From Lachnoclostridium sp. An169 (GTDB lineage Bacteria > Bacillota > Clostridia > Lachnospirales > Lachnospiraceae), in the NCBI RefSeq assembly GCF_002160525.1, contig NZ_NFKT01000001.1, positions 62,001 through 126,000 of the forward strand: a stretch of DNA of 64,000 nt, given 5' to 3'. A model generated the notes under the pieces. That model was not told the DNA's origin. It saw only the letters and a program-made list of their open reading frames with translations, and ran no database searches. Each line of letters opens with the position of its first letter. The first letter of the stretch is position 1. The translations under genes were made by a program, and so were the position numbers. This document shows, piece after piece, positions 52,656-59,155 of the stretch.

Positions 52656-54914
52656 ATGAGAAAAAAGAGACGCTTTTTCAGAAACTGGCGGCTGTGTATT
52701 CCGGTTATCTTCATTTATATGGAGACGGTGTTCCATCTTTATATGGGACTGGATATGAAGTATACCGCGCTATTTGTACTGTTTGATCTTGCTGTCGGAC
52801 TGCTCCTTGCGGGCATTCTGTATTTTCTGAAGGAGCGTCCTGCGAGAATCGCGGGGGCAGTCCTTACAGCAGGACTGTCCCTGCTGTTTGTGGCGGAATG
52901 TATCTGCAGAGATATCCTTCAGCAGTACTATCAGTTTTTCAGTGCTGTGGAGACCGCGGCGGGAAATCATCTGACAGATTACCTCCCTGCGGTGGTGCAG
53001 TCGATTGTCCGCCATATTCCGGGAATTTTTCTGCTTATGGTGATCCCCCTGGGATTCTATGCTGTCTGCGTGATTCTTCCCGGTCGGCGGAACAGAATGC
53101 GTGCCCGGGACAGCACTGCATCTGTGCGGAAAACGCCGGGAAATCACAGGAGTCCCCGGATCTTAATCGAGATCCTTGTCGAGAAGGCGGGATATTTCCT
53201 GAGAAAGAGGAGGATGAGAAAGGGGCTGGCATGTATCCTGCTTGCGTGTTTTATTCAGGTGGTGGGGCTTGGAATTATGAATCTGTTTCCCTGGAGCGGT
53301 GATTTCACTCCGGATATGCTGTATCAGGTGGATACCAATGCGGAGGATCAGGTGGAACAGCTCGGACTGGTTACCATGCTCCGCCTTGATATGGTACATT
53401 TTCTGCATGGAGGAGCAGACGTGACGCTTCCGGAAATTAACCGGGATGCCGCCCTTGCGGTATCCGGAGAGGATGTCTCAGACAGCGGTGACGGAAAGGA
53501 ATCCGATGAAACCGGTGATGGTGCGGAGGAAAGCGGAGGGAAAAATGGAACCGGTAATGCCGGAGAAAAAGGAGAGGACGGCGGGAAAAAGGATAGGGTT
53601 TATCCCTACAATGCTCTGGACATTGATTTTGAGGCGCTGAAAGCTTCTGCACCGAATGAAGACTCCGCATGGCTTGACGAGTATTTTGAGAGTGTGGTTC
53701 CCACCAGACAGAATAAGTATACCGGAATGTTTGAAGGATATAATGTCATATTTATTACTGCAGAAGGATTCAGCGGCTATATGATCGATCCGGAGATTAC
53801 GCCTACTCTCTACAGACTATCCCATGAAGGTTTCGTGTTTGAAAATTTTTATTCCACACTGCATTTTACCAGTACTTCAGGGGGAGAGTTTCAGAACCTT
53901 ACCGGTCTGTATCCCAAAGCGGGATTCCCGGTGAGCATGTCGGAGACGGGAAAACAGGGGACAAGCCTTCCGTTTAACCTTGCATCCCAGCTCAACCGGC
54001 TGGGATATACCTCCATCGGTTATCATTATAATCAGAATATGTATGGGCGGGAGCTATCTCATCCGAATCTGGGATATAACTGGCGGCAGTTTACAAATTG
54101 CGCCGAGCCCTTAAGCCCGGAGACAAACTCCAACGGATATGTCTACTGGCCCCAGTCGGACGACTATATGATTGAGCAGACTTTTTCGGAATATGCGGAC
54201 CGGCAGCCCTTCAATATCTATTACCTGACAATCAGCGGGCATCTCCCGTACGGATTTTCCGACAGCCAGATGTCTGCCAGGAATGAAGACGCCGTTCAGT
54301 CCCTTCCCTATTCGGAAAAGACAAAAGCATATATTGCGGCAAATCTGGAACTGGAAAAAGGACTGACCCGTCTGGTGAACTATCTGGAGGATGCGGGGAT
54401 TGCAGATAAAACTGTGATCGTGATGGCACCGGACCATATCCCGTATTCTGATCTGGATGTACTGGAAGAACTCTCCGGACAGTCTTTTAATTCGGAGACA
54501 CTGGAAAACCTGAATGAAAAGAATTTGAATGTAAATGTATACAAGAATACATGGATACTATGGTCCGCATCCATGGAAGAACCGGTAGTTGTTGACAAAC
54601 CCTGCAGCCAGGTGGATATCCTGCCTACCGTGTCCAATCTCCTGGGGCTTCAATATGACTCGCGGATGCTTGCGGGAACGGATGTGCTCTCAACAAGCGA
54701 TCCGGTGGTGATTTTCTACTCTCATTCCTGGCTTACGGAGAAAGGAATGTATGACCGGTATTCCGGTACATTTACTCCGGCGCAGGGAGTGGAGATGAGC
54801 CAGGAAGAACAGAATGTGTATGTGGAAAATACGAAGTATATAGTAGAAAGCAGGCTGAAGCTCGGACAGCTGATTATCGAAAATGACTATTACCGTCAGG
54901 CGGTTCCGTGGTGA
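52656..54914 (+). CDS. LTA synthase-like membrane sulfatase-fold protein
   Basis: This is a membrane phosphoglycerol-transferase-like enzyme of the LtaS family, 752 residues. The N-terminal third has about five membrane helices (first near residues 10-28; a charged cytoplasmic loop at about 150-185). A low-complexity acidic/Gly/Lys linker (about 268-310) leads to the extracellular sulfatase-fold domain from about 345. The metal-site strand is YNVIFITAEGFSGYM, and the likely Thr nucleophile is Thr407 in TSTSGGEF, matching the T-S-x-x-E-F of LtaS. The segment KTVIVMAPDHIPYSD holds the conserved Asp-His. It probably modifies a cell-surface polymer; the acceptor is unknown. It begins 49 bases after thrS and has a weak AAGGAAAAAC ribosome site. 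Confidence 0.9.
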   Translation: MRKKRRFFRNWRLCIPVIFIYMETVFHLYMGLDMKYTALFVLFDLAVGLLLAGILYFLKERPARIAGAVLTAGLSLLFVAECICRDILQQYYQFFSAVETAAGNHLTDYLPAVVQSIVRHIPGIFLLMVIPLGFYAVCVILPGRRNRMRARDSTASVRKTPGNHRSPRILIEILVEKAGYFLRKRRMRKGLACILLACFIQVVGLGIMNLFPWSGDFTPDMLYQVDTNAEDQVEQLGLVTMLRLDMVHFLHGGADVTLPEINRDAALAVSGEDVSDSGDGKESDETGDGAEESGGKNGTGNAGEKGEDGGKKDRVYPYNALDIDFEALKASAPNEDSAWLDEYFESVVPTRQNKYTGMFEGYNVIFITAEGFSGYMIDPEITPTLYRLSHEGFVFENFYSTLHFTSTSGGEFQNLTGLYPKAGFPVSMSETGKQGTSLPFNLASQLNRLGYTSIGYHYNQNMYGRELSHPNLGYNWRQFTNCAEPLSPETNSNGYVYWPQSDDYMIEQTFSEYADRQPFNIYYLTISGHLPYGFSDSQMSARNEDAVQSLPYSEKTKAYIAANLELEKGLTRLVNYLEDAGIADKTVIVMAPDHIPYSDLDVLEELSGQSFNSETLENLNEKNLNVNVYKNTWILWSASMEEPVVVDKPCSQVDILPTVSNLLGLQYDSRMLAGTDVLSTSDPVVIFYSHSWLTEKGMYDRYSGTFTPAQGVEMSQEEQNVYVENTKYIVESRLKLGQLIIENDYYRQAVPW

Positions 54915-54946
54915 TGCGGTTTCCGGCGCCGGGGCTGAAAAGCTGC

Positions 54947-54975
54947 TTGACAGGTCCGTGCCGGGATAGTAAGAT
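54947..54975 (+). promoter_or_regulatory. Promoter of the orphan shell-protein locus
   Basis: A perfect TTGACA (54947-54952) and TAAGAT (54970-54975) are spaced 17 bases. The leader contains a perfect hairpin, ATGCCG-CTC-CGGCAT (55027-55041). Confidence 0.8.
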
Positions 54976-55101
54976 TTTTATGTTGGCCGGATATTAAGCT
55001 GTCCGGATGCGATGAGACCGGAATTTATGCCGCTCCGGCATTCTGAGTGGTGGAAAGAAATAGTTTTTGAAAAATACGGACTGGAAAGAGAGGTACTGAC
55101 A

Positions 55102-55467
55102 ATGGCGAATGACCATGGAGAACAGATAAGAATTGTGCAGGAGACTGTGGCGGGAAAAGAGATTACATTTGCACATGTAATGGGCGGCCCGGCTCCGATT
55201 ATATATCAGAAGCTGGGACTGAATCCCCAGCTGGATTACCGTTCCTCGGCGATCGGGATTATGAACATGACTCCGCCGGAGTCTGCGGTGATCGCCTCCG
55301 ATATCGCGGTGAAGAGCGGTAATGTATATCTCGGGTTTGCAGACAGGTTTACGGGTACCCTGATTATTACGGGAGAGATCTCGGACGTTACTTCGGCCCT
55401 GACGGAAATCGTGGACTACTTCCGGGATTCCCTTGGATATGTAGTGTGCGATATCACGAAGAGATAG
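55102..55467 (+). CDS. Microcompartment shell protein, EutS/PduU type (first copy)
   Basis: This is a BMC-domain protein of the circularly permuted EutS/PduU type, 121 residues. Matching segments are VAGKEITFAHVMGGPAPIIYQKLGL at the start, SAIGIMNMTPPESAVIASDIAVKSG in the middle and LGFADRFTGTLIITGEISDVTSAL near the end. In known systems such proteins form hexagonal tiles of a protein shell with a small N-terminal barrel over the pore. The ATG at 55102 is preferred because the family starts there; the frame is open from 55012. A paralogue and a GTPase follow, but there are no enzymes, no BMC-H major shell protein and no pentamer gene nearby. Confidence 0.9.
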   Translation: MANDHGEQIRIVQETVAGKEITFAHVMGGPAPIIYQKLGLNPQLDYRSSAIGIMNMTPPESAVIASDIAVKSGNVYLGFADRFTGTLIITGEISDVTSALTEIVDYFRDSLGYVVCDITKR

Positions 55468-55485
55468 AAGTGGGGAGTGCGGCGT

Positions 55486-55914
55486 ATGGCTCGAATGACG
55501 AAAGAGGAACTGCTGGAGAAGCTGTTCCACGATGATTATGAACATCTGAAGGGAAAGAAACTTCGTATGACCCGGGTGCGTGTCCCGGGAAAAGAGGTCT
55601 GCCTGGCTCATGTGATCACTCCTGACCAGACCTGCATTTATCAGAACCTTGCCCTCCACATCGGGGTGCATGAAGGAGAGGACCACACGGGTGAATCCAT
55701 CGGACTGATCCGTTTTACTCCGTGGGAATCGGTTGTGGTGGCAGCGGATGTGGCAGTGAAAAGCGCAAATGTACAGATCGGTTTTATGGACCGGTTCTGC
55801 GGTTCCCTGATCCTCACCGGCGGTCTGGCGGAGGTGCAGACTGCAGTGGAAGAAGTGGTAAAATTTTTCGACAGGGTTCTTGGCTTTAAAGTCTGTGAGA
55901 TCCACAAAAGCTGA
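55486..55914 (+). CDS. Microcompartment shell protein, EutS/PduU type (second copy)
   Basis: This is a divergent paralogue of the preceding shell protein, 142 residues. It carries VPGKEVCLAHVITPDQTCIYQNLALH, ESIGLIRFTPWESVVVAADVAVKSA and IGFMDRFCGSLILTGGLAEVQTAV. Its N-terminus is about 25 residues longer (TKEELLEKLFHDDYEHLKGKK-like), a possible short helix that could act as a docking or encapsulation element; that is inference. It also has an insertion of acidic residues (GVHEGEDHTGE) before the core. The ATG at 55486 has GGGGAG upstream; a GTG three codons earlier is possible. It is 18 bases from the first copy. Confidence 0.88.
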   Translation: MARMTKEELLEKLFHDDYEHLKGKKLRMTRVRVPGKEVCLAHVITPDQTCIYQNLALHIGVHEGEDHTGESIGLIRFTPWESVVVAADVAVKSANVQIGFMDRFCGSLILTGGLAEVQTAVEEVVKFFDRVLGFKVCEIHKS

Positions 55915-55931
55915 GAGAGACAGGTGGCAGA

Positions 55932-56474
55932 ATGAAAAAGATATTTCTGATGGGAAGAAGCGAGGCGGGGAAGACCTCGCTGACCCAGGCGTTAAAAGGT
56001 GAAGAACTTCATTATATTAAGACACAATATACGAATACCCAGGACGATATGATTGACTCTCCGGGAGAGTATGCCGAATCCAAGCGGTTCAGCGTAGGGC
56101 TTGCCTGCTTTTCCTTTGAGGCGGACGTGGTGGCCATTGTCCAGGCCGCAGACGAGCCTTTCAATCTGTTCGGCGACAGCAGCAGGGCCTTTATTCAGCG
56201 GCCTCTGATCGGCATTATTACCAAGATTGACTCGCCTTATGCCAATATCCCCATGGTCAGACAGTGGATGCTCAATGCGGGATGTGAGCGAATCTTTCAG
56301 GTGGATAATGTGACGAGGGAAGGAATCGATGAACTGTTGGATTATCTGCGGGATGATCTTCCCCATCTGACGATGGAGCAGGCAATGTTCAAGCAGAGTC
56401 TGGGATTGAATGAGTGGGATCCGCTTCCGGAGGGAGTGGAATATCCAGAGGAGCCGTCCGGCGTTCCGGTTTGA
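55932..56474 (+). CDS. EutP/PduV-family GTPase
   Basis: This is a small P-loop GTPase of the EutP/PduV family, found with microcompartments. The Walker A loop is GRSEAGKTSL (residues 8-17), the family form; IDSPGEYAE replaces the usual DxxG and GIITKID provides the guanine-specificity (TKxD) motif. At 180 residues it is about 20-30 longer than usual because of a C-terminal tail (LGLNEWDPLPEGVEYPEEP). PduV has been linked to positioning of microcompartments, and EutP to acetate kinase activity in ethanolamine use; which applies here is unknown. It ends the three-gene operon; the terminator overlaps its stop. Confidence 0.9.
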   Translation: MKKIFLMGRSEAGKTSLTQALKGEELHYIKTQYTNTQDDMIDSPGEYAESKRFSVGLACFSFEADVVAIVQAADEPFNLFGDSSRAFIQRPLIGIITKIDSPYANIPMVRQWMLNAGCERIFQVDNVTREGIDELLDYLRDDLPHLTMEQAMFKQSLGLNEWDPLPEGVEYPEEPSGVPV

Positions 56475-56497
56475 CCGGAGGATGCCGGACGGTTTTT
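56454..56497 (+). terminator. Intrinsic terminator of the shell-protein locus
   Basis: CCGTCCGGCGTTCCGG (56454-56469) pairs with CCGGAGGATGCCGGACGG (56475-56492) with small bulges, followed by TTTTT. The stop codon of the GTPase lies in the loop. Confidence 0.8.
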
Positions 56498-56629
56498 AAT
56501 ATGGCGGATAATGGCGGATAATGTCAGCAACGGGAATTGACACAGGGAAGGATATAGGATACAATAGCGGGAGAACATTTGTTCTTTTGGTAAATCTGCA
56601 ATAATCCGAACCGATGGGAGGGATGGGAT

Positions 56630-57063
56630 GTGAAAAAGAAAAAGAGGCGGGGCGCTGTGGCCTGTGCCGGAATTGCTTCCTGTATTTTTATTGCCACCGC
56701 GGGTTACCTGGCCCTGCATTATCAGAATACATCCCCAGAGCGGCTGCCAGACAGGTTCGGGAAGAGGATAGAAGCAGTATACAGTTCTGTGGATAAAGAT
56801 AATGACGGATATGACGTGTGAGAAACCTGCAGGTTTATTTTGAGCATACTGCGGTAAAGCTTACTACAGATATATCCGACACAGAACAGTGGCAGGGAGG
56901 GGATATTGTGGTATTTCACAATCATATCGGGATTGTCTCAGACAGAAGAAATGAAAACGGAGTTCCTTATGTTATCCATCATAACAGTCCCTGGCAGAAA
57001 AGATATGAGGAGGATATTCTGGAAAAGAGGAAGGATATCGAGGGGCATTATCGGGTGACATAA
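56630..57063 (+). pseudogene. DUF1287 gene with internal deletion and frameshift
   Basis: The first part (GTG at 56630 to TGA at 56821) encodes a membrane or signal segment (GIASCIFIATAGYLALHYQN) and then ERLPDRFGKRIEAVYSSVDKDNDGYD. The second part (about 56817-57060, another frame) encodes VRNLQVYFEHTAVKLTTDIS, then WQGGDIVVFHNHIGIVSDRR and YVIHHNSPWQK. Together these look like the start and the end of a DUF1287 protein, but the middle of the family (about 90-100 residues, including the GVCTD segment with its Cys) is missing. I infer one deletion at about 56815 that also changed the frame. The NlpC/P60-like fold of this family would need the lost part for activity. Confidence 0.75.
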
Positions 57064-57169
57064 GGCGATTCGGAGCCTGATATCGAGCATCTCAAAAGTC
57101 ACAAAGGATTACCCTGCGGTATACTGTTATATACTGAAAAGACGGGCAAAGCTGAGGAGAAGATTTTAT

Positions 57170-59155
57170 ATGGATCATTTTGAATTAGTATCAGAATACA
57201 AACCCACCGGCGACCAGCCACAGGCCATCGAGCAGCTGGTCAAAGGTTTCAAGGAAGGCAACCAGTGCCAGACCCTGCTGGGCGTCACCGGCTCCGGTAA
57301 GACCTTCACGATGGCAAACGTCATCCAGCAATTAAATAAACCGACATTGATTATCGCTCACAACAAGACTCTGGCGGCACAGCTCTACGGCGAGTTCAAG
57401 GAATTCTTCCCGAACAATGCTGTAGAGTACTTTGTGTCCTACTACGACTACTACCAGCCCGAGGCCTACGTCCCCTCCTCGGACACTTACATCGCCAAGG
57501 ACTCCGCTATCAATGAAGAAATCGATAAACTCCGTCTCTCCGCCACTATGGCGCTGACAGAGAGGAGAGATGTAATCATTGTTGCCAGTGTGTCGTGTAT
57601 CTACGGTCTGGGAAACCCGGTGGACTATCAGAATATGGTGATTTCCCTGCGCCCGGGCATGATCAAGGACCGGGATGAAGTGATGGCAAAATTGATCGAG
57701 ATCCAGTATGACCGCAATGATATGGATTTTCACAGGGGAACTTTCCGGGTGCGCGGGGATGTGCTCGAGATTATACCTGCATACGAGAGTGAGACGGCGA
57801 TCCGGATTGAGTTCTTCGGAGATGAGGTAGACCGGATCACGGAGATCGATATCCTGACGGGAGAGGTGAAGGACGAACTGAAACATGTTGCTATTTTCCC
57901 GGCATCGCACTATGTTGTGGATAAGGAGAATATAAAGAGAGCGGTTCATGATATTGAAGAAGAACTGGATGAGCGGGTGAAAGAGTTCAAGCGTCAGGAC
58001 AAGCTCCTTGAGGCGCAGAGGATTGCGGAGCGGACGAACTTTGATATTGAGATGCTCAAAGAGACCGGTTTCTGTTCCGGCATTGAGAACTATTCCAGGC
58101 ATCTTGCAGGTCTGGCGCCGGGACAGCCTCCGTATACACTGATCGATTATTTCCCGGATGATTTTATTATGATGATCGACGAGTCCCACAAGACGATCCC
58201 GCAGATCGGAGGAATGTACCATGGCGATCAGTCGAGAAAATCAACGCTGGTGGATTACGGATTCCGACTCCCCTCAGCGAAGGACAACCGCCCCTTGAAT
58301 TTTGAAGAATTTGAGAGTAAAATCAATCAGGTGCTGTTCGTATCGGCAACGCCCGGACCCTATGAGGAGGAGCATGAGCTTCTGAGGGCTGAACAGGTGA
58401 TCCGCCCCACCGGACTTCTTGATCCGGAGGTCAGTGTGCGTCCGGTGGAAGGACAGATCGATGATCTGATCGGCGAGATTAATAAGGAAGTGGCGAACAA
58501 GAACAAGGTTCTTGTTACCACCCTGACGAAACGGATGGCTGAAGACCTTACAGACTATATGCGCGAAGTGGGGATTCGGGTGAAATATCTCCACTCGGAT
58601 GTGGATACACTGGAACGGACGGAGATTATCCGGGACATGCGTCTGGATGTCTTTGATGTGCTGGTGGGAATCAACCTCTTAAGAGAAGGTCTGGACATTC
58701 CGGAGATCACTCTGGTAGCGATTCTTGATGCGGACAAGGAAGGGTTCCTTCGTTCGGAGACGTCTCTGATTCAGACCATCGGACGTGCGGCGAGAAATGC
58801 CGAGGGCCATGTCATCATGTATGCGGACACCGTTACAGAGTCCATGCAGAAGGCGATCGACGAGACACGCCGGCGCCGTGAGATTCAGATGAAATATAAT
58901 GAAGAACACGGGATCACGCCGCAGACGATTCAGAAGTCTGTCCGCGATCTGATCAGCATCTCGAAGAAGGTTGCTGCGGAAGAACTTCGTATGGAGAAGG
59001 ATCCGGAATCCATGAGTAGAAAGGAACTGGAGAAACTGATCTCCGATTTGACAAAACAGATGAAGAAAGCGGCGGCAGAACTGAATTTCGAGTCAGCGGC
59101 AGAACTGCGTGACAAACTGGTGGACCTGAAGAAGATGCTGAATGACCTCGAATGA
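57170..59155 (+). CDS. uvrB: UvrABC excision nuclease subunit B
   Basis: This is the DNA damage-verifying helicase-like subunit of nucleotide excision repair. The Walker A is [17 protein letters not shown] (residues 34-50). The beta-hairpin that inserts into DNA contains [21 protein letters not shown]. Further helicase motifs are [13 protein letters not shown] and [13 protein letters not shown]-terminal UVR domain ([25 protein letters not shown]) contacts UvrC. At 661 residues it is full length. It is followed after 30 bases by uvrA, the common clostridial order. Confidence 0.97.

Follow-up and report, generated by a model that had tools for sequence, protein, structure and literature searches.

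Among the closest described relatives of the locus presented here are the PduU-PduV and EutS-EutP pairs of the pdu, eut and GRM5 loci, in which a permuted shell protein of the bacterial microcompartment (BMC), of the BMC-H type, is encoded beside a small GTPase of the EutP/PduV family. Passages of PMC3557285 describe a PduU-like gene in the fucose/rhamnose locus of C. phytofermentans, and also a pduV-like gene in the R. inulinivorans locus. PduU and PduV interact in a two-hybrid assay, and in docking PduV comes to lie on the barrel of PduU, at the outer side of the shell (passages of PMC4315436); PduV-GFP patches resemble Pdu compartments (a passage of PMC7181861), and the function of the EutP/PduV GTPase and of the EutS/PduU barrel is still treated as open in passages of PMC11334477 and PMC4315436. 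Also close are the satellite and satellite-like loci, that is, shell genes without the pentamer protein BMC-P and apart from the main locus of the same genome (as passages of PMC4207490 and PMC8217296 describe them); Axen et al. 2014 (PMC4207490) put the share of satellite-like loci that have a PduV/EutP gene close by at 57% in one passage and at a quarter in another. The CcmK3/K4 satellite of beta-carboxysomes also consists of shell paralogues obligately far from the main locus, and separate regulation has been proposed for it (a passage of PMC8217296; see also PMC5853843). Here we describe a three-gene operon, the trio, in a stretch of 64,000 nucleotides from Lachnoclostridium sp. An169 (contig NZ_NFKT01000001.1, positions 62,001 to 126,000 of the forward strand; hereafter the window), which encodes two permuted BMC-H proteins, EutS1 and EutS2, and a EutP/PduV-family GTPase, and which is probably a trans-encoded satellite operon supplying accessory parts to the cell's microcompartment. 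We take the CcmK3/K4 satellite to differ from the trio in being made of cyanobacterial CcmK paralogues of unpermuted fold, with no GTPase.

The three genes lie on the same strand and their reading frames are all intact. A preliminary description of this DNA had recognized two EutS/PduU-type proteins and a EutP/PduV GTPase, and matches to the Pfam BMC and PduV-EutP families confirm this. The features of the operon, in window coordinates, are:

54947..54975, + strand: dedicated sigma-70/A-type promoter, predicted, TTGACA-N13-ATAGTAAGAT
55102..55467, + strand: eutS1, permuted BMC-H (EutS/PduU-type), 121 aa
55486..55914, + strand: eutS2, second permuted BMC-H, 142 aa, with a conserved N-terminal helical extension at about residues 5-22; alternative GTG start at 55477
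55932..56474, + strand: EutP/PduV-family small GTPase gene, 180 aa, with the conserved C-terminal tail LTMEQAMFKQSLGLNEWDPLPEGVEYP
56449..56497, + strand: Rho-independent terminator, predicted, overlapping the 3' end of the GTPase gene, stop codon included (folding z -6.08)

The host assembly (4.85 Mb, 90 contigs) contains ten BMC domains: two in the trio, six on contig C12 and two in a lone EutL-like protein on contig C13. The sole PF03319 match of the genome is also on C12, and the trio operon has PF00936 only. The C12 locus encodes a class II aldolase, an HbpS-like (HbpS/DUF336-like) protein, an aldehyde dehydrogenase, a zinc alcohol dehydrogenase, four BMC-H proteins, PduL, BMC-P, a PduS-like protein, a double-domain BMC-T protein and a DeoR-like regulator, all called by Pfam except the last, which was called by sequence and place. 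Save for a radical enzyme, this is the gene set given for GRM5 in a passage of PMC4207490 and for the C. phytofermentans fucose/rhamnose locus in a passage of PMC3557285; a glycyl radical diol dehydratase with its activase was not found at C12, and the lone pyruvate formate-lyase-like match of the genome is on C16. By gene content, the C12 locus is GRM5-like (fucose/rhamnose type) without the radical enzyme, and its compartment would make and use lactaldehyde. The locus (L011, C12:35000-54999) adjoins rhamnose isomerase and kinase genes and is without the diol dehydratase carried by some relatives; it is possibly a lactaldehyde-only compartment. Enzymes, a major BMC-H and a pentamer protein had been said to be missing from the operon, which holds for its surroundings, the complete BMC locus being on another contig. 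Measured against the rule that a satellite has PF00936 or PF03319 but not both, the trio operon has only the former; the strict rule, by which no other BMC-related gene is near, does not describe it, because the operon includes a PduV/EutP gene, and it is therefore satellite-like in the wording of Axen et al. Under the definition of Sutter et al. 2021, by which the locus is distal and holds shell proteins alone or together with enzymes, a satellite is the nearest category. We regard its satellite status as almost certain.

Co-occurrence with other BMC genes was counted in two samples, the trio being scored in both as EutS2 at E <1e-40. Among 58 genomes of the genus (BMC domains at E up to 0.001), 37 are BMC-positive and 30 have the trio, which is present in 30 of the 37 positive genomes and in none of the 21 negative ones (Fisher 3.5e-10, kinship ignored). 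Each of these 30 has at least six BMC matches, two of them from the trio, and 26 have a canonical BMC-H match at 4e-30 or better. In the family sample (298 genomes, each at least 90% complete), BMC-P was found in all 15 trio genomes, which represent 14 genera, compared with 87 of 298 overall (Fisher 3.8e-9, kinship again ignored), and in every one of the 15 it is on a different contig from the trio; in the one-contig genome G018 the trio is about 1.29 Mb from the main locus. The main loci of 13 of the 15 are GRM5-like, including that of the host and that of G215, which is cut by a contig end before the aldolase. G325 yielded two BMC-P loci, one of ethanolamine type (EutB) and one that is not GRM5-like; the locus of G262 is not GRM5-like either. 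Outside the family, G378 has the trio plus further BMC matches.

The lone EutL-like double-BMC protein of the host (C13:37021-38502; L013:11022-12503), which adjoins a short-chain dehydrogenase/reductase (SDR), is a second satellite. It has a homologue in 27 of the 58 genus genomes (one of them broken), 25 of which have the trio, and in G018 the EutL-like gene is about 30-35 kb from the main locus.

To describe the distribution of the trio we scanned 84,980 species, each represented by a single genome, with EutS2 and obtained 117 relatives, of which 80 were retained; the contig counts that follow cover these 80, and, with EutS2 as the query, the independent evidence in them is the presence of its partners only. 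The order EutS1-EutS2-EutP on one strand occurs in 80 of 80 contigs, four matches being cut by a contig end (EutP in L065, L082 and L083, EutS1 in L118), and stops inside the matches are found only at the very end of three GTPases. Identity to the window proteins is 83-99% for EutS1 and 73-92% for EutS2, and the relatives include Mediterraneibacter, Blautia, Schaedlerella and Acetatifactor. The BMC-H, BMC-T, EutL, BMC-P and PduL proteins of C12 and C13 had no match outside the trio in any of the 80 contigs (E up to 1e-5; flanks of median 7.6 kb upstream and 7.4 kb downstream covered in 79 contigs). Two checks proposed in the preliminary description, for relatives with the same three genes and no other BMC genes nearby and for a BMC locus elsewhere in this genome, returned 80 of 80 contigs and the GRM5-like locus on C12. 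In a class-wide sample of 391 genomes, matches at E 1e-30 or better came only from the host itself, G349 and G378 (another family); G349 has the variant order EutS1-EutP-EutS2, also has BMC loci, and was left out of the 15 family trio genomes. Comparison with six relatives gave dN of 0.007-0.16 and dS of 0.9-3.3, partly saturated (dS not estimable for L096), and the trio is, as judged from these rates, under purifying selection. Among the 30 genus copies only that of G008 has frameshifts in EutS2 (a draft, in which the EutL-like gene also has stops), that of G070 is cut by a contig end, and the remaining 28 EutS2 matches are stop-free. On these copies we reject decay of the trio. Its order in 80 of 80 contigs, stops only at the very end of three GTPases, low dN against high dS, and the trees below, in which the trio is separated from the in-locus pair, speak against the rearranged, decayed fragment of a full locus that had been named as the outcome fatal to a module.

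Many GRM5-like loci have a eutS-eutP pair directly before the aldolase, often behind open reading frames (ORFs) of the size of a glycyl radical enzyme and its activase, whose identity beside the BMC locus was confirmed by Pfam in one relative only (L137). In the EutS tree (67 rows), a 100/98 branch splits 48 trio rows from 17 in-locus rows and two satellite pairs, and the trio proteins form one group each, EutS2 at 99/94 and EutS1 at 93/85, with several long branches that leave the deep joins unsure. The 24 trio rows of the EutP tree (41 rows) also form one group (99/95). Because of these separate groups the module appears to be an ancient lineage that underwent a duplication of its own and has been passed on whole, and a recent break-off from the main locus is contradicted by both the EutS and the EutP trees. 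Two genomes, G204 and G214, have a two-gene satellite eutS-eutP without EutS2 (L148:6030-6900 and L150:7228-8040) and main GRM5-like loci without the pair; these satellite pairs group with the in-locus proteins.

Both EutS-like proteins contain a Pfam BMC domain (45.3 and 56.2 bits, cut-off 24.5). The NCBIfam EutS model NF012012 scores them at 86.5 and 75.7 bits, below its curated cut-off of 123 bits, and by these profiles they are kin of EutS and are not classed as EutS proper. EutS2 aligns with solved EutS over residues 22-141 (E 4.7e-21) and with solved PduU over residues 27-140 (E 3.2e-18); we assign EutS2 to the permuted BMC-H group (BMC-Hp, EutS/PduU) by this structure-sequence alignment, and EutS1 by the EutS model and the tree. 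An earlier placement of the eutS1 start at 55012 is unlikely, and 55102 is the most likely start, because 113 of 139 extracted EutS1-type matches (overlapping loci counted repeatedly) are 121 aa long. The extra N-terminal helix-like segment that had been noticed on EutS2 is conserved in relatives and predicted to be helical: across 31 sequences L10 and L21 are invariant and L9, E11, F14, D17 and Y18 almost so, and the low-confidence AlphaFold monomer model (mean pLDDT 63, residues 20-37 below 50) has a helix at 6-21. We considered and rejected this helix as an encapsulation-type amphipathic peptide, its moment being not clearly above that of shuffles.

The GTPase scores 153.6 bits with Pfam PF10662 (PduV-EutP; cut-off 21, a lax one that other GTPases pass at 21-28 bits) and 122.6 bits with TIGR02528, under the cut-off of 138.35; it is, on these scores, a divergent EutP/PduV relative. 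All 28 aligned sequences share its P-loop (G8-S16) and the G3 residues D42/G45 without variation. The C-terminal tail pointed out earlier exists and is conserved, although its acidity describes it less well than the motif GLNEWDPLP on which it is centred, with G158 and W162 invariant in the 28 sequences. This motif is absent from the in-locus EutP proteins compared, and the deep variants G349, G378 and G262 have merely a faint echo of it. A sequence search of the GTPase against solved structures (E up to 0.001) gave no match, and its AlphaFold model has a mean pLDDT of 56. In the 1.5-Mb genome G262 (L159:1122-3040) the trio includes a second EutP gene, and one EutP copy carries a long additional extension at its C-terminus (209 aa).

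A promoter of its own (TTGACA-17-TAAGAT) and a terminator had been ascribed to the operon, and both are borne out, each by evidence other than a simple scan. A plain promoter consensus scan found four sites in 2.2 kb, no better than chance (shuffles 2.2 +/- 1.6), and we make the call because the element is conserved in relatives: of 80 upstream regions (from 79 contigs and the window), 65 contain TTGACA-N13-ATAGTATSAT at a score of 15-16 out of 16 and 13 reach 12 or less, the best shuffle scoring 12, with the host -10 box TAAGAT being one departure from the conserved element. None of the main BMC loci fetched contains the exact pattern (with W at one place). Across 99 genomes there are 30 copies of it, of which 17 lie at the trio and 13 at other sites (reversed control, 1), and it is missing from 13 of the 30 genus trios; as judged by its conservation, then, the element is the trio's promoter but is not exclusive to it. 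In the genus the exact element has six other sites: G018:C1:2172278, G063:C66:26340, G035:C131:1414, G079:C60:16130, G023:C6:6893 and G011:C101:6696. That the trio is expressed constitutively would be a guess. The simple terminator scan overlooked the trio terminator and gave a single match, inside the GTPase gene; the fold of 56448-56506 is at -35.5 kcal/mol (z -6.08, none of 200 shuffles as good), with TTTTT at the 3' end. We do not claim an operator palindrome in the promoter spacer (CAGAAAA-N-TTTTCTG), since an A-then-T bias explains it equally well: its pairs number 121 of 290 against a shuffled mean of 81, with none of 2000 shuffles as high, but over the 58 distinct sites the best centre pairs a mean of 2.1 of 5 positions and neighbouring centres 1.8-1.9. 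Catabolite (cre) and Rex boxes upstream of the trio are distributed as in shuffles, and a search for an RNA leader in 54700-57200 gave no Rfam match at E up to 0.5.

According to the explanation that we prefer, the trio would supply parts to whichever compartment the cell builds, which in the host is the aldolase (fucose/rhamnose-type) compartment of C12. EutS1 and EutS2 would form permuted hexameric rings and enter the shell as minor tiles, with the N-terminal barrels of the rings facing the cytosol; the GTPase would dock on these barrels, aided by its own C-terminal motif and by the EutS2 N-terminal helix, and its GTP cycle would control the position, inheritance or assembly of the organelle. 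The ring tiles and the cytosolic GTPase partner are drawn by analogy with PduU-PduV; from that analogy we lean towards a GTPase docked on EutS rings, and propose positioning or assembly as the output more tentatively, at a little short of an even chance. Several observations weigh against this explanation. The co-occurrence is a correlation among related genomes, BMC-P was counted in the family sample only and the genus counts rest on BMC domains, and seven of the 37 BMC-positive genus genomes are without the trio, so that the shell does not require it. Canonical BMC-H had no match in four genus trio genomes, G005, G024, G065 and G071 (75, 81, 81 and 94% complete): G071 has the BMC-T and DeoR genes of a GRM5-like locus at a contig end and G024 an in-locus-type eutS-eutP, but in G005 and G065 only a EutL-like gene was identified beyond the trio among the matches listed. 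The AlphaFold models of EutS2 and the GTPase are too poor to support the barrel or the docking of helix and tail, and the amphipathic moment of the helix is no better than chance, 17% of shuffles being equally high. Finally, a passage of PMC11334477 cites a study with EutP in the cytosol and calls the positioning role unvalidated.

Two roles had been offered for the trio. The full locus on C12 and the further BMC matches in every trio genome examined support the first, a satellite module for a microcompartment whose genes lie elsewhere. The other, an assembly of rings and GTPase independent of any shell, would suit an operon far from BMC loci and without enzymes or pentamer, but it is left unsupported by those same matches, found in 30 of 30 genus genomes, in 15 of 15 family genomes (as BMC-P) and in G378; we give it hardly any weight, and think it very likely that the trio works on the shell rather than alone. 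As to its function there, in our view positioning or assembly is followed in likelihood by permeability tuning, by mere replacement and by an acyl-phosphate kinase. If EutS-type tiles expressed separately altered passage through the shell, with the GTPase as a helper, this would account for two diverged, conserved ring paralogues under their own promoter, and a passage of PMC8217296 suggests that satellite shell proteins in general may serve to alter shell permeability; we hold it to be unlikely, since the GTPase, with a conserved tail of its own, is present beside the rings in all 80 contigs and the PduU pore is capped by the barrel (a passage of PMC4315436).

It is also conceivable that the trio is a spare copy that merely replaces the eutS-eutP pair of GRM5-like loci, its function unchanged. 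Of the 15 family trio genomes, 8 have no other EutS, as against 12 of the 72 BMC-P-positive family genomes without the trio (p 0.005, kinship ignored; the 72 include the variant G349 and the satellite pairs), several trio genomes have nothing at the place before the aldolase where the pair usually lies, and G032 has an in-locus eutP remnant with two stops, no eutS having been found beside it. Yet seven of the 15 keep another EutS, three (G318, G374 and G108) keep the whole in-locus pair, and the trio forms its own tree groups and has parts absent from the in-locus proteins, which makes simple replacement quite unlikely. An acyl kinase module, in which a EutP-like kinase held by the EutS rings would turn acyl-phosphate leaving the shell into acid and ATP, seems to us very doubtful. 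It could draw on the report of Salmonella EutP as an acetate kinase (Moore and Escalante-Semerena 2016, cited in a passage of PMC11334477), and no kinase was noticed on reading the ORF list of the C12 BMC operon, for which no search was made; but the GTPase reaches only 50.8 bits with the EutP acetate-kinase equivalog model NF012011, far under its cut-off of 258, and its P-loop and G3 residues are invariant.

The genes around the trio vary. Other matches in the flanks of the 80 contigs were to UvrA (14), UvrB (9), SDR (4), PduP (3) and DeoR (3), the last three kinds at low identity; UvrB at >60% identity is found in seven contigs and the LTA synthase in none. In the window, the flanks had been described as an LTA-synthase-like gene and DNA repair genes, with the correction that a broken DUF1287 gene (56630-57063) lies between the trio and uvrB; it is made up of a short signal-peptide-like ORF, which matches no Pfam family, and, after it in a different frame, the domain's C-terminal half (profile positions 84-162). 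L066 (7818-12034) has, about 2 kb ahead of its complete uvrB, a 98-codon fragment of the start of uvrB; a NADAR-domain gene and further ORFs fill the interval, and the arrangement resembles an insertion next to a gene that was rebuilt.

Satellite loci with PduV/EutP are known; what is new is the duplicated-ring, trans-encoded module. Compared with published satellite loci, the trio is distinguished by a constant set of three genes in one operon, the duplication of the permuted ring, the tail of its GTPase and a promoter that is conserved, and it recurs in many genera; compared with in-locus pairs, it falls in separate tree groups, has its ring gene doubled, has the EutS2 helix and the GTPase tail, and is located at a distance. 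The exact set is not described in the passages seen of the main texts of PMC4207490 and PMC8217296, whose supplementary tables were outside the scope and may list some of the loci. EutS, EutP and PduV do not occur in the main text of PMC8217296, and in the gut-microbiome survey PMC6620236 EutS does not appear and EutP and PduV appear once each, in a legend on kinase trees. Literature searched by title or abstract start contained no paper about such an operon; supplementary data, outside the scope, may well tabulate loci of this kind.

The EutS/PduU-EutP/PduV pair usually lies within large enzyme operons. In the trio the pair has come apart from such operons during evolution, its ring gene has been doubled and the resulting module has been kept in many genera; the enzymes and the main shell genes need not be touched when these three genes are removed, expressed or swapped. 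One accessory kit may serve several organelle types in trans, as suggested by main loci that are GRM5-like in 13 of 15 genomes, by the ethanolamine-type locus among those of G325, by the non-GRM5 locus of G262 and by the presence of the trio in G378, outside the family. A bolder proposal, which we consider somewhat unlikely, is that the trio is a dedicated adaptor of GTPase and two rings, expressed separately and perhaps constitutively, which serves different compartment types in trans as a general device for their positioning or inheritance. If true, it would be the counterpart, for metabolosomes, of the carboxysome McdAB system, made from the shell proteins themselves.

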